64,000 nt of DNA from Salinisphaera japonica YTM-1 (GTDB lineage: Bacteria; Pseudomonadota; Gammaproteobacteria; Nevskiales; Salinisphaeraceae), in assembly GCF_003788585.1 (NCBI RefSeq), contig NZ_AYKG01000001.1:186001-250000 (forward strand), read 5' to 3'. This document shows positions 402 through 53,798 of this stretch, piece after piece. Each line of letters starts with the position of its first letter. The stretch's first letter is position 1. The position numbers were made by a program, and so were the translations under genes. A model generated the notes under the pieces. The model had not been told where the DNA came from. It did no database searches and was given only the letters and a program-made list of their open reading frames with translations.

Positions 402-2825
402 ATGAGCGAACAAGACACGAACGCACGCGTCGACGAGCCCGCGCGCCCCGAGCCGGGTGAGACCATCGAAGGCCCGAGCACGACGCTGGTCTATAACCGC
501 CAGCAGGCCTCGCGCCCGGAAACCATCCGGGTGCTGCCCATGACCGAAACCGTGATGTTTCCCGAGCTGGTCATGCCCGTGGTGCTCAACCGCCAGGCCA
601 ATATCAACGCCGCCCAGAAAGCCATGCACGCGGATGAACCGGTCGGCCTGCTGCTCGGAGACGCTCAAAGCCCGGAGATGAACAGCCCAAACGGCCTGCA
701 TCGTTTTGGCACGGTGGTGAACATCCTGCGCTATGTGACCGGCAACGACGGCGCGCATCATCTGGTGTGCCAGGGCGTGTCGCGCTTCAAGGTGCGCGAG
801 TTCATCGAGGATGAAACCGGCGCGCTGAGCGCGAAGATCATCTGGATCGACGAGCCGGCCGCTGAGGGCGACAAACAGATCGATGCCCGCATGTCGAACC
901 TGCGCACGCGAGCGCTGGAGGCCATCGAATTGATGGATCAGCCCTCGCGGGAACTGGCCAACGCCATCCGCGCGATCGACTCGGCGGCGCTGCTGGCAGA
1001 CGCCACCGCGGGTTATCTCGGCCTCAAGGCCAAGGAAAAACAACAGATTCTGGAGACCGTGGCGCTGGATGCCCGCCTGGAGCTGGTCCAGTCGTTCATG
1101 GACTATCGGCTTGAGGTGATGCGTCTGTCGCAGGACATCAACAAGCAGACGCAGGACCGGATGTCCGAGCATCAGCGCAAGGCGATGCTGCGCGAGCAGA
1201 TGCGCTCGATCCAGCGCGAGCTCGGCGAGGACGACAGCGTGGCCGAGGAGGCCGAGCGTCTGCGCGAAGCCCTGGACAAGGCCAATCTGCCCGAGGACGC
1301 GGCCGAGCAGACCACGCGCGAGCTCAAACGCCTGGAGCGCATGTCCGAGTCCTCGGCCGAGTACTCGATGGTGCGCACCTACCTCGAACTGATGGCCGAG
1401 TTGCCCTGGGCCGAGCTCTCCACCGACGCCATCGATATCAAAGAGTCGCGCGCGATTCTGGACGCGGATCACTACGGCCTGGACAAGATCAAGCGCCGTA
1501 TCCTTGAGCATCTGGCCGTGCACAAGCTCAACCCCGAGGGCAAGGCACCCATCCTGTGTTTCGTCGGCCCGCCGGGCGTGGGCAAGACCTCGCTGGGCCG
1601 CTCGATCGCGCGGGCCATGAACCGTGAGTTCGTGCGCGCGGCCCTTGGCGGCGTGCACGATGAATCCGAGATTCGCGGGCATCGACGAACCTATGTAGGC
1701 GCCATGCCGGGCTCGATCATCAGCCAGATCAAGAAAGCCGGCACGCGCAACCCGGTGTTCATGCTGGATGAGATGGACAAGCTCGGCGCCTCCGCCCACG
1801 GCGATCCGGCCTCGGCCCTGCTCGAGGTGCTGGACCCGTCGCAGAACGATACCTTCAACGATCACTATCTGGGCACGCCGTTCGATCTGTCGAAGGTGAT
1901 GTTCATCGCCACGGCCAACGTGCTGGACACCATTCCCGGCCCGCTGCGCGATCGCATGGAAGTCATCGAAGTGCCGGGCTACACGCGCGAGGAAAAGAAA
2001 CAGATCGCCAAGCGGTATCTCGTGGATCGCCAGCTGGAACAGTCGGGCGTGACCCGCGAACAGGTCGATATTTCCGATGCCGCGCTGGATACGATCATCG
2101 CCGGCTACACCCGCGAGGCGGGCCTGCGTAACTTCGAGCGCCAGATCGGTGCCATCGCCCGGCATGCCGCCGTCAAGATCGCCGAGGGCGAGCCCGGCCC
2201 GGGCCTGATCGAGCCCGATGACCTCAAGGCCATCATCGGCGCCAAGCGCGTGGATGATGAAGTCGCCCTGCGCACGAGCGTGGCCGGCGTGGTCACGGGC
2301 CTGGCCTGGACCCCGGCCGGCGGCGATATCCTGTTCGTCGAGGTCTCGCGCTCACCCGGCAACGGCAAGCTGACGATCACCGGCCAGCTGGGTGATGTCA
2401 TGCGTGAATCCGCCCAGGCGGCCCTGTCACTGGTCAAGGCACGGGCCGAGACGCTGGGCATCGAGCAGGAACGCCTGGACAAGTCGGATATCCATATCCA
2501 CGTGCCCGCCGGGGCCATCAAGAAAGACGGCCCCAGCGCCGGCGTGGCGCTCTACACCGCGCTGGTCTCACTGCTGACCGATCGCAAGGTGAAAAACGAT
2601 GTCGCCATGACCGGCGAAATCAGCCTGCGCGGGCAAGTGCTGCCCATCGGCGGCGTGAAGGAAAAGACGCTGGCCGCGCATCAAGCCGGCATCAAGACCG
2701 TGCTGCTGCCCGAGCGCAACGCCCGCGACGAAGACGATATTCCCGACAATATCCGCGAAGCCTTGGATATCCGGTATATCGGCGAGGTCAGTCAGGCGAT
2801 CGAGCTGGCGCTGGAGACGAACTGA
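402..2825 (+). CDS. lon: ATP-dependent Lon protease
   Basis: Cytoplasmic AAA+ serine protease that degrades misfolded and regulatory proteins. At 807 residues it has the full bacterial layout: N-terminal substrate domain (from about residue 45, IRVLPMTETVMFPE), a long helical linker, an AAA+ module with Walker A GPPGVGKT at 389-396 and Walker B FMLDEMDK, and a C-terminal protease domain with the Ser712-Lys755 dyad (motifs KDGPSAG and GGVKEK). The 43-residue dyad spacing equals that of E. coli Lon (Ser679-Lys722). It follows the Hsp20 gene by 14 bp. I see no heat-shock promoter with confidence because the region upstream is outside the window. Confidence 0.97.
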   Translation: MSEQDTNARVDEPARPEPGETIEGPSTTLVYNRQQASRPETIRVLPMTETVMFPELVMPVVLNRQANINAAQKAMHADEPVGLLLGDAQSPEMNSPNGLHRFGTVVNILRYVTGNDGAHHLVCQGVSRFKVREFIEDETGALSAKIIWIDEPAAEGDKQIDARMSNLRTRALEAIELMDQPSRELANAIRAIDSAALLADATAGYLGLKAKEKQQILETVALDARLELVQSFMDYRLEVMRLSQDINKQTQDRMSEHQRKAMLREQMRSIQRELGEDDSVAEEAERLREALDKANLPEDAAEQTTRELKRLERMSESSAEYSMVRTYLELMAELPWAELSTDAIDIKESRAILDADHYGLDKIKRRILEHLAVHKLNPEGKAPILCFVGPPGVGKTSLGRSIARAMNREFVRAALGGVHDESEIRGHRRTYVGAMPGSIISQIKKAGTRNPVFMLDEMDKLGASAHGDPASALLEVLDPSQNDTFNDHYLGTPFDLSKVMFIATANVLDTIPGPLRDRMEVIEVPGYTREEKKQIAKRYLVDRQLEQSGVTREQVDISDAALDTIIAGYTREAGLRNFERQIGAIARHAAVKIAEGEPGPGLIEPDDLKAIIGAKRVDDEVALRTSVAGVVTGLAWTPAGGDILFVEVSRSPGNGKLTITGQLGDVMRESAQAALSLVKARAETLGIEQERLDKSDIHIHVPAGAIKKDGPSAGVALYTALVSLLTDRKVKNDVAMTGEISLRGQVLPIGGVKEKTLAAHQAGIKTVLLPERNARDEDDIPDNIREALDIRYIGEVSQAIELALETN

Positions 2826-14268: not shown

Positions 14269-14272
14269 GTCA

Positions 14273-14353
14273 TCGAACCTGTATTTTCTATGCCGCAGGT
14301 TCGACATCTATCGAAAACCATTTCATAGCACGGCCTGCGACCGCGCTATGGAA
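14273..14353 (-). repeat. Partial distal repeat of the tRNA-Arg(CCU) array
   Basis: Read on the minus strand, this 81-bp segment repeats the first part of the neighbouring full unit: the 5' hairpin, the conserved ggttttcgatag linker and the complete first stem tcgaacctg...caggttcga. It then breaks off at the S1/P1 gene end. One stem pair has changed from G-T to G-C relative to the full unit. It is the last, truncated member of the array. Confidence 0.8.
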
Positions 14354-14525
14354 TGGTGTCCCCGGCAGGAGTATTCGGCGCTTCGCGCCTCACCCTTCGG
14401 GCCAGTCGCTTTCGCGACTGTTCGTCGTGGCTGGCGCCACGCCGTCGAACCTGTATTTTCTATGTCGCAGGTTCGACGTCTATCGAAAACCATTCCATAA
14501 CACGGCATGCGACCGCGCTATGGAA
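14354..14525 (-). repeat. Full 172-bp repeat unit behind tRNA-Arg(CCU), ends in a tRNA 3' copy
   Basis: On the minus strand the unit abuts the tRNA CCA end and closes with an exact copy of the last 19 nt of the tRNA (actcctgccggggacacca, 14354-14372). In between are six hairpins: 14493-14505/14513-14525 (13 bp with G-U pairs), 14445-14453/14468-14476 (9 bp), 14426-14431/14436-14441, 14403-14409/14414-14420, 14393-14395/14399-14401 and 14377-14381/14385-14389. The order and linkers match the array behind the other tRNA-Arg. Probably part of the tRNA transcript and released by processing. Confidence 0.8.
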
Positions 14526-14602
14526 TGGTGTCCCCGGCAGGAGTCGAACCTGCGACCTGCCGCTTAGGAGGCGGCTGCTCTATCCTGCTGAGCTACGAGG
14601 AC
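14526..14602 (-). tRNA. tRNA-Arg(CCU)
   Basis: The minus strand folds as a complete cloverleaf: acceptor GTCCTCG/CGGGGAC (one T-G pair), D-stem GCTC/GAGC, anticodon stem GCCGC/GCGGC with loop CTCCTAA, so anticodon CCT reading AGG, and T-arm GCAGG-TTCGACT-CCTGC. The discriminator is A and CCA is encoded. Length 77 nt. A -10-like TATACG sits about 6 bp upstream (around 14609-14614 on the minus strand). Confidence 0.96.
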
Positions 14603-52981: not shown

Positions 52982-53058
52982 GCGCCCGTAGCTCAGCTGG
53001 ATAGAGCACCGGCCTTCGAAGCCGGGTGTCGCAGGTTCGAATCCTGCCGGGCGCACCA
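52982..53058 (+). tRNA. tRNA-Arg(UCG)
   Basis: Full cloverleaf: acceptor GCGCCCG/CGGGCGC, D-stem GCTC/GAGC, anticodon stem CCGGC/GCCGG with loop CTTCGAA, so anticodon TCG reading CGA, T-arm GCAGG-TTCGAAT-CCTGC, discriminator A and encoded CCA. Length 77 nt. Three tandem repeats carrying its 3' end follow directly. Confidence 0.97.
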
Positions 53059-53243
53059 ATACCTAGGCGCTCCTCTTGGCTTTCAGAGTTCTGGCGGCGT
53101 AATCGGAGCCCATTCGAACCTGCGACACAATCAGTAAGTCAGGTTCGACGGCTGCGCAACGCGCAGACGAACAGTACGGCAGTGCCGTACTGGCCCCGTA
53201 GGGGTGAGCGGCAAAGCCGCGAATAATCCTGCCGGGCGCACCA
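53059..53243 (+). repeat. Repeat unit 1 behind tRNA-Arg(UCG) (185 bp, ends in tRNA 3' copy)
   Basis: It abuts the tRNA CCA and ends with an exact copy of the last 19 nt of the tRNA (aatcctgccgggcgcacca, 53225-53243; original 53040-53058). Five hairpins precede it: 53114-53122/53140-53148 (9 bp), 53152-53157/53161-53166, 53172-53180/53184-53192, 53194-53197/53201-53204 and 53208-53212/53216-53220. The first 50 bp differ from units 2 and 3 and resemble the truncated fourth unit. Confidence 0.88.
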
Positions 53244-53429
53244 TACACAGGATGCTTGTTCAGAGTTTTCGGAAGCTTGAAAGCTCGAACGAAGCCCCTT
53301 CGAACCTGCGACACAATCAACAAGTCAGGTTCGACAGCTGCGCAACGCGCAGATGAACAGTACGGCAACGCCGTACTGGCCCCGAAGGGGTGAGCGGCAA
53401 AGCCGCGAATAATCCTGCCGGGCGCACCA
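53244..53429 (+). repeat. Repeat unit 2 behind tRNA-Arg(UCG) (186 bp)
   Basis: Second tandem unit, nearly identical to unit 3 over its whole length and to unit 1 from the first conserved hairpin onward. It ends with the same exact 19-nt tRNA 3' copy (53411-53429). Its loops differ from unit 1 (AAC for AGT in stem 3, GAA for GTA in stem 4) while the stems are kept. Confidence 0.88.
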
Positions 53430-53615
53430 TCAGCAGGATGCTTGTTCAAAGTTTTCGGAAGCTTGAAAGCTCGAACGAAGCCCATTCGAACCTGCGACAC
53501 GATCAACAAGTCAGGTTCGACGGCTGCGCAACGCGCAGACGAACAGTACGGCAACGCCGTACTGGCCCCGAAGGGGTGAGCGGCAAAGCCGCGAATAATC
53601 CTGCCGGGCACACCA
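53430..53615 (+). repeat. Repeat unit 3 behind tRNA-Arg(UCG) (186 bp)
   Basis: Third unit. Its tRNA 3' copy (53597-53615) has one change, gggcacacca for gggcgcacca, so it could no longer form a perfect acceptor stem. The hairpins are preserved. Confidence 0.88.
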
Positions 53616-53699
53616 ATACTGAGATGGTCTTCTAAGCCTTCAGAATCCTGATGCCATGATCGGAGCCCATTCGAACCTGCGACACGATCACTTATTCAG
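53616..53699 (+). repeat. Truncated fourth unit of the tRNA-Arg(UCG) array
   Basis: It resembles the start of unit 1 (gatcggagcccattcgaacctgcg is recognisable in two pieces: gatcggagccc and attcgaacctgcgacac) and ends just after the first hairpin, here reduced to acctg/caggt. The array therefore closes in the same hairpin at which the tRNA-Arg(CCU) array closes. Confidence 0.75.
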
Positions 53700-53798
53700 G
53701 TGCCGTCGCCACCACGCCCGCGACACCTATTCCGTGCATGCACCGGCCGCCGATGTCATTAGTCAGCGCGCGATGCCCGGTGAGTATCACGTCACTGT

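Follow-up and report, generated by a model that had tools for sequence, protein, structure and literature searches.

The tandem repeats behind tRNA-Arg(UCG) of Salinisphaera japonica and the rtT repeats of E. coli are, judged by a shared core sequence, one homologous family rather than analogues. The evidence given below suggests that this family is a hairpin-rich DNA module of about 77 letters that is seated exactly in the T-loop of spare tRNA gene copies. The simplest account, to which we give somewhat better than even credence, is a discrete, mobile or formerly mobile module that enters the T-loops of duplicated tRNA genes and is amplified by recombination. We arrive at this account because of three observations, i.e., the breadth of the family over tRNAs, its exact boundaries, and flanks that follow the local tRNA.

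The array behind tRNA-Arg(UCG)

In the following, the window denotes the whole 64-kb stretch of DNA that was analysed. The array comprises the following features, where R1 is the core model introduced below and RtT the respective Rfam model.

52982..53058, plus strand: intact tRNA-Arg(TCG), the array's upstream member (ARAGORN; Rfam tRNA 73.6 bits)
53059..53243, plus strand: repeat unit 1, 185 bp
53112..53128, minus strand: inverted T-arm segment of unit 1, 17 nt, complement of tRNA positions 53026-53042 (inverted repeat I5)
53149..53225, plus strand: core module of unit 1, 77 bp between GGTTCGA and ATCC (R1 match 53142-53229, 84.4 bits)
53225..53243, plus strand: last 19 nt of the tRNA with CCA, copy 1
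53244..53429, plus strand: repeat unit 2, 186 bp
53299..53314, minus strand: inverted T-arm segment of unit 2, 16 nt (inverted repeat I8)
53335..53411, plus strand: core module of unit 2 (R1 match 53328-53415, 84.0 bits)
53411..53429, plus strand: last 19 nt of the tRNA with CCA, copy 2
53430..53615, plus strand: repeat unit 3, 186 bp, tRNA end with one change
53484..53500, minus strand: inverted T-arm segment of unit 3, 17 nt (inverted repeat I6)
53521..53597, plus strand: core module of unit 3 (R1 match 53514-53601, 86.4 bits; RtT 28.1 bits, model positions 1-130)
53597..53615, plus strand: last 19 nt of the tRNA, copy 3, one change
53616..53702, plus strand: truncated unit 4, to about 53702
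53669..53685, minus strand: inverted T-arm segment of truncated unit 4, 17 nt (inverted repeat I7)

The array is the window's top tandem repeat (period 186, 95% matches, score 925; Tandem Repeats Finder), and all other tandem repeats of the window score just 54-67. The measured unit lengths of 185, 186 and 186 bp agree with the first-pass annotation, which had described units of 185-186 bp and a truncated fourth. It had also stated that each unit closes with the last 19 nt of the tRNA, as is indeed the case: this end, AATCCTGCCGGGCGCACCA, is unaltered in the first two units and carries a single change in unit 3. The 3' end of the intact tRNA itself serves as the period's first copy.

Within unit 1, we find the order flank, inverted T-arm copy, T-stem 5' strand, core, and tRNA 3' end. 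A feature absent from the first-pass annotation is an inverted segment of 16-17 nt in every unit, which reverse-complements its own tRNA over the variable loop, the T stem 5' strand and the T loop. Beyond this inverted segment, each full unit reads GGTTCGA, then the core, a series of hairpins spanning about 77 bp, and finally ATCC with the remaining tRNA 3' end. The truncated unit 4 has no core; it retains the flank and the inverted T-arm copy and stops after the next hairpin has begun. No terminator-like site was found between tRNA and core in this array. An extra ARAGORN call of tRNA-Arg(TCG) on the minus strand (53002-53073) overlaps the real tRNA and looks like an artefact of palindromic tRNA sequence.

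Further copies in the same genome

Copies within the genome were sought in two ways, i.e., by a DNA search with one unit and by a search with a core-only model. A second tRNA of the window carries the element.

14526..14602, minus strand: tRNA-Arg(CCT), the window's second tRNA with the element (ARAGORN)
14354..14525, minus strand: one complete 172-bp unit behind tRNA-Arg(CCT), ending in its own tRNA 3' end (core match 14368-14451; RtT 40.2 bits)
14269..14353, minus strand: truncated second unit behind tRNA-Arg(CCT)

Furthermore, four full units and one truncated unit trail tRNA-Arg(TCT) (L009), two units each are found behind tRNA-Tyr (L012) and tRNA-Gln(CTG) (L142), and a truncated remnant lies behind tRNA-Arg(CCG) (L011). 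Each full unit of this genome closes with the 3' end of its own tRNA and of no other. There is also a degenerate orphan core without a tRNA (L010; G000 contig C6, about 430-530, minus strand). Upstream of it, we observed inverted copies of GTCAGGTCTTGCATT, which is also present beside several RAYT-like genes of the genus, e.g., at L292. Another observation concerns abiF RNA, for which L011:118-157 (G000 contig C5, minus strand), located about 200 bp upstream of tRNA-Arg(CCG), scores 35.3 bits and just misses the gathering score of 37.

Relation to E. coli rtT

The rtT repeats of E. coli are a decades-old oddity of tRNA-Tyr; the original paper is reportedly that of Bosl and Kersten from 1991. 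The first-pass annotation had noted that the array is laid out like the E. coli tyrT locus, yet in a different isoacceptor and with unrelated sequence. The likeness holds and is closer than claimed. That is, the two Tyr units of the S. japonica genome reach 58.7 and 55.8 bits against Rfam RtT (RF00391; gathering score 45), while the units of the tRNA-Arg(TCG) array stay below this score (28.1, 26.1 and 17.7 bits at full length, 1-130). Since the RtT covariance model includes Tyr-specific ends, we built model R1 from 22 cores with tRNA ends left out and without any E. coli sequence. R1 matches all four E. coli K-12 tyrT copies with E-values from 3.7e-12 to 2.9e-13; one of these matches sits between tyrT and tyrV.

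Because a model built without E. coli matches the K-12 copies, the core is homologous to rtT, and the notion of unrelated sequence does not hold. The statement about a different isoacceptor is right for the tRNA-Arg(UCG) locus and misleading in general, as rtT-type units trail many isoacceptors. RtT is defined as lying downstream of tRNA-Tyr, a position that the Tyr locus of S. japonica shares and the tRNA-Arg(TCG) array does not. The family is so far known by one member type only, namely the RtT of tRNA-Tyr.

Breadth across genomes and tRNAs

Within a sample of the class, R1 matches occur in 97/274 gammaproteobacterial genomes, and all 14 genomes of the genus Salinisphaera hold 1 to 17 copies each. 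In a different class, one family has R1 matches in many of its members; the loci read there carry Ser and Gln copies. An R1-independent pattern scan of named genomes, from which 91 cores were parsed, identified cores in Salinisphaera hydrothermalis, S. shabanensis and S. orenii. Most of the parsed cores (72/91) are located downstream of the tRNA whose 3' end they copy, 4 upstream of a tRNA and 3 near one, and contig ends or chimeric tRNAs account for most of the 12 left; as cores share descent, such counts are not independent. The isoacceptors with cores comprise Gln, Tyr, all Ser, all Arg, Pro, Glu, Val, Thr, Asp, Lys and Asn. Copies are found both in close relatives and behind other tRNAs, contrary to the absence that the first-pass annotation had named as grounds for refutation.

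The exact pattern of the Arg inverted segment had no match in the named genomes. Among the matches listed for the plasmid collection, only the tRNA part of the query was covered. In one genome of the phylum sample (G319), at least 6 of 14 R1 matches share a single score of 37.4 bits and are scattered over several contigs; judged by these scores and positions, they are a dispersed hairpin repeat.

Core boundaries and mirror forms

The core measures about 70-95 bp and has fixed boundaries, i.e., in the copies read it is preceded by GGTTCGA and followed by AT(A)ATCC, which together are a tRNA T-loop. The junction TTCGA^AT lies in the T-loop of a tRNA fragment or pseudogene. The core occupies this context in many unrelated tRNAs, and both sides of the junction are those of the local tRNA. 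The core is consistently seated 3' of TTCGA or a close variant, in T-loop context.

Two mirror forms are observed. The downstream form, as found at tRNA-Arg(TCG), is composed of the intact tRNA, flank, inverted T-arm segment, GGTTCGA, core, and tRNA 3' end. The upstream form begins with a promoter and the 5' part of the tRNA as far as GGTTCGA; then follow the core, a brief remainder of the T-stem 3' strand, and finally promoter and intact tRNA. It is present at L028, L042, L098, L162, L166, L174 and in Kosakonia (L363). That is, upstream copies duplicate the 5' half of the tRNA together with its promoter, and the CCA end is absent.

These forms bear on a reading as scars of phage or integrative-element attachment sites at the tRNA 3' end. 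The usual integration target of phages and integrative elements is this very end, and every unit restores it. The junction, however, is always in the T-loop with a conserved core, and the upstream copies duplicate the 5' half and the promoter instead. No integrase or element was seen beside the loci read, and nothing similar was found among the 50,697 records of a phage collection. We grant this reading a slim chance.

Some loci are informative about how arrays arise. At L439, an intact tRNA-Arg is followed by a near-complete second tRNA-Arg copy that is split in its T-loop by two identical 71-bp cores, arranged head to tail and free of intervening tRNA sequence. This looks like an early stage of array formation. 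At L179, one 71-bp core is present at both tRNA-Pro and tRNA-Arg, about 350 bp apart and identical at 71/71 positions, and the identity ends at GTTCGA before and ATC after the core. The respective Arg unit is a direct partial tRNA copy from the anticodon arm on, the sole such case among 129 first units. The family of genomes to which L179 belongs contains many compact Pro-Arg-His operons that are empty of any core. In G055, cores with 95% identity are found at tRNA-Gln and tRNA-Val on different contigs. Presence also varies at tRNA-Arg(TCG) within Salinisphaera, where G001 and G002 are without the element, G011 has a remnant only, and G006, G008 and G010 carry full units.

Tandem duplication alone would mean that slippage or unequal crossover generated the units from the tRNA 3' end plus flank, that the hairpins arose locally, and that the likeness to rtT is convergent. 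It accounts for units that are identical in tandem and for the flanking terminator being repeated per unit. It does not account for one core with shared motifs and covarying stems at many tRNAs in many families, nor for the cores of L439 that are tandem without tRNA sequence, and the complete identity at two tRNAs of L179 is beyond convergence. We consider this reading already contradicted and leave it next to no probability.

As a side observation, L367:223-377 holds the 5' part of a tRNA-Gln fused via a core to a Ser-like 3' end (ATCCCTCCCTCTCCGACA). This chimera suggests that cores of different tRNA genes have recombined with each other.

Flanks follow the local tRNA

In most arrays, the last 18 nt of a unit equal those of its own tRNA with zero mismatches. 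The ends are probably kept identical because the tandem period starts inside the tRNA, such that unequal recombination would homogenise them. For the inverted segment, we compared each of the 129 first units with the reverse complement of its own tRNA. Here, the longest match averages 10.8 nt, compared to an average of 7.5 nt and a maximum of 7.8 nt when the tRNAs are permuted (200 permutations).

An instructive case is tRNA-Arg(TCG) of G010. Its T arm is altered, and the inverted segment and 3' end of the first unit are altered alike, while the unit's own T-stem 5' strand is unaltered despite the changed T arm. Such a co-change of inverted segment and tRNA could stem from template switching at the quasi-palindrome or from selection on pairing with the tRNA.

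Two subtypes can be distinguished. In the Arg-like subtype, the inverted segment complements the T stem 5' strand and the variable loop. In the Gln/Tyr/Ser-like subtype, it complements the T stem 3' strand and the acceptor, usually with the GATGAGAACC motif.

DNA or RNA signature of the core

The core stems show strong compensatory changes. In addition, the last hairpin is flanked by a covarying T-A/C-G pair (50 T-A, 65 C-G, 6 T-G, 0 C-A), where the respective Fisher test ignores shared descent. Both observations can be explained by folding of either RNA or single-stranded DNA.

The core loops, in turn, favour DNA over RNA folding, as far as loop types can tell. Most of them are of GNA or GNNA type. 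C(GNA)G loops are found in 125/342 core hairpins (stems of 5 or more) vs. 2/522 background hairpins from the rest of the window and 3/199 terminator-like hairpins from the same loci as the cores. All four middle bases are found in the GNA core loops. Core tetraloops are of GNNA type without the purine rule (26 GNRA vs. 21 GNYA), and there is no UNCG. GNA and GNNA loops on G-C stems are known as extraordinarily stable DNA mini-hairpins (PMC4686876). ViennaRNA parameter sets have no triloop-specific terms and hence are uninformative for GNA loops. For G.T vs. A.C mismatches in stems, an unbiased count yields 11 to 10, while the model-fitted alignment yields 114 to 27, or 52 to 15 once the outer pair of hairpin 3 is left out. 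Separately, we noted that many core loops in several marine lineages read AGGA, AGGGA or CGGGA and resemble CsrA-binding hairpins.

In 53/129 arrays, tRNA and core are separated by a terminator-like hairpin, and membership in the tRNA transcript is therefore not general. The distribution depends on the tRNA: such terminators precede the core in all Gln-CTG (11/11) and Arg-ACG (10/10) arrays and in none at Gln-TTG (0/22) or Tyr (0/16).

These data have to be weighed against a reading as conserved small RNA. Here, RtT would be cut from the tRNA primary transcript by tRNA-processing enzymes that read the copied CCA end and would act in trans, e.g., on the stringent response, while selection keeps stems and tRNA ends. 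RtT RNAs do give Northern signals in Actinobacillus pleuropneumoniae (PMC4986893), and cold upregulates RtT in Thioalkalivibrio (PMC8092127). The RtT scores of the Tyr units, the strongly compensated stems with their covarying pair, and the lack of terminators before the core at Tyr, Gln-TTG and in the tRNA-Arg(TCG) array are in line with this reading as well. It is at odds with the terminators of the other arrays, including Gln-CTG and Arg-ACG, with DNA-type loops that show neither UNCG nor the GNRA purine rule, with upstream copies that have no CCA end, and with units missing from related genomes. We regard it as rather unlikely, though worth keeping in view. Module and RtT RNA are compatible, since a module in a tRNA trailer is transcribed wherever no terminator intervenes.

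A related reading takes the units as decoys for RNase P/E or tRNA 3'-end enzymes. The units hold the full T-stem 3' strand, the acceptor 3' strand and CCA, and a minihelix forms in the Gln, Tyr and Ser types by pairing between their 5' segment and the tRNA end. The Arg type, including the tRNA-Arg(TCG) array, is without this minihelix pairing and complements the other T-stem strand; moreover, many copies are preceded by terminators and the upstream copies are without CCA. We judge a decoy function very improbable. Decoys and stable small RNAs were two of the roles offered by the first-pass annotation. Both lose ground as general explanations through the 53/129 terminators and the DNA-type loops, while an RtT RNA is indeed on record for other bacteria (PMC4986893, PMC8092127).

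A proposed module entering tRNA T-loops

Returning to the module reading, the following sequence of events can be envisaged. A core would enter the T-loop of a duplicated tRNA gene, such that the cell would keep one intact gene. Decay of the interrupted copy would then leave either a 3' part behind the intact tRNA, as at tRNA-Arg(TCG), or a 5' part ahead of it. The array may be amplified by unequal recombination among units, with the 3' end of the intact tRNA serving as first period, and template switching at the quasi-palindrome, or selection, may keep the inverted T-arm copy in step with the tRNA. A trans-acting enzyme that moves or recognises the core as folded single-stranded DNA is predicted, with the loop signature as pointer. 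The rtT RNA at some loci would be a by-product or a later co-option. Of the three ideas of the first-pass annotation, recombination scars come nearest to this scenario, in which recombination has a part.

A further-reaching version, which we hold tentatively and at somewhat less than even confidence, is that of a novel class of mobile DNA. Here, hairpin modules of about 75 bp, themselves free of genes, would travel as folded single-stranded DNA, enter only tRNA T-loops in Gammaproteobacteria and beyond, and survive by having the host tRNA duplicated around them. The rtT of E. coli would then count among their fossils.

Several points speak against the module reading. Many arrays of the genus look vertically inherited. 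The compensated stem changes also fit selection on structure. With a distance of about 350 bp, the identical cores of L179 could have been homogenised by gene conversion. The excess of G.T over A.C in the model-aligned stems, together with 6 T.G and no C.A at the covarying pair, is as expected of sense-strand folding, RNA included. Finally, RtT RNA is detected in other species.

We saw no transposase or recombinase linked to a core. Y1 transposase genes (PF01797) are present in 14/14 genus genomes; a Y1/RAYT transposase was considered as linked mobiliser and rejected, as no core lies within about 1 kb of 20 such genes. The flanks of the RAYT-like genes in Salinisphaera (L284-L301, Y1 transposase flanks) share the recurring strings GGGGTCAGGTCTTGCATTG, GGGGACAGTATACTTAA and GGGGACAGACCACGG, which are possibly RAYT terminal repeats.

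Implications and comparison with known systems

If the further-reaching version is true, this is a categorically new mobile element, gene-free and T-loop-specific. Viewed across genomes, E. coli rtT is one instance of a family whose members interrupt the most conserved loop of tRNA copies and carry tRNA ends matched to the locus, and the origin of rtT repeats gets a testable account. Some RtT annotations would likely be DNA elements and not regulatory RNAs. The loops would point to an enzyme that possibly acts on folded single-stranded DNA at tRNA genes. Moreover, the arrays offer a natural example of concerted evolution of a gene with direct and inverted copies of its own end. In the open literature, we found no account of the isoacceptor spread, the T-loop boundaries, the mirror forms or the tandem cores; subscription literature was mostly outside the search, which makes this weak evidence of absence.

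The closest known system is the RtT RNA of the E. coli tyrT operon (RF00391; RttR), a tRNA-Tyr trailer RNA with repeats of about 178 bp. Shared features are tandem units of about 180 bp, a tRNA 3' end that closes each of them, and the homologous core. Unlike RtT, the array studied here follows a tRNA-Arg and has Arg-derived ends as well as an inverted T-arm copy, and the family as a whole covers many isoacceptors and upstream mirror forms.

With IS200/IS605 and REP/RAYT elements, the core shares that it is short, gene-free, rich in hairpins, located 3' of a fixed TTCGA and without obvious target duplication. It differs from them in having no linked transposase, and its movement is predicted from sequence. 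The GTTC/GAAC complementarity at the core presumably parallels the guide-target pairing of IS608. Likewise, we take the tRNA ends to resemble those by which tRNA-targeting integrative elements restore their target, and the alternation of a folded site with variable segments to resemble integron attC arrays. In contrast to both tRNA-targeting integrative elements and integrons, no integrase or cargo genes were seen and the junction is located inside the T-loop, and the segments of rtT-family arrays are pieces of the tRNA locus itself.
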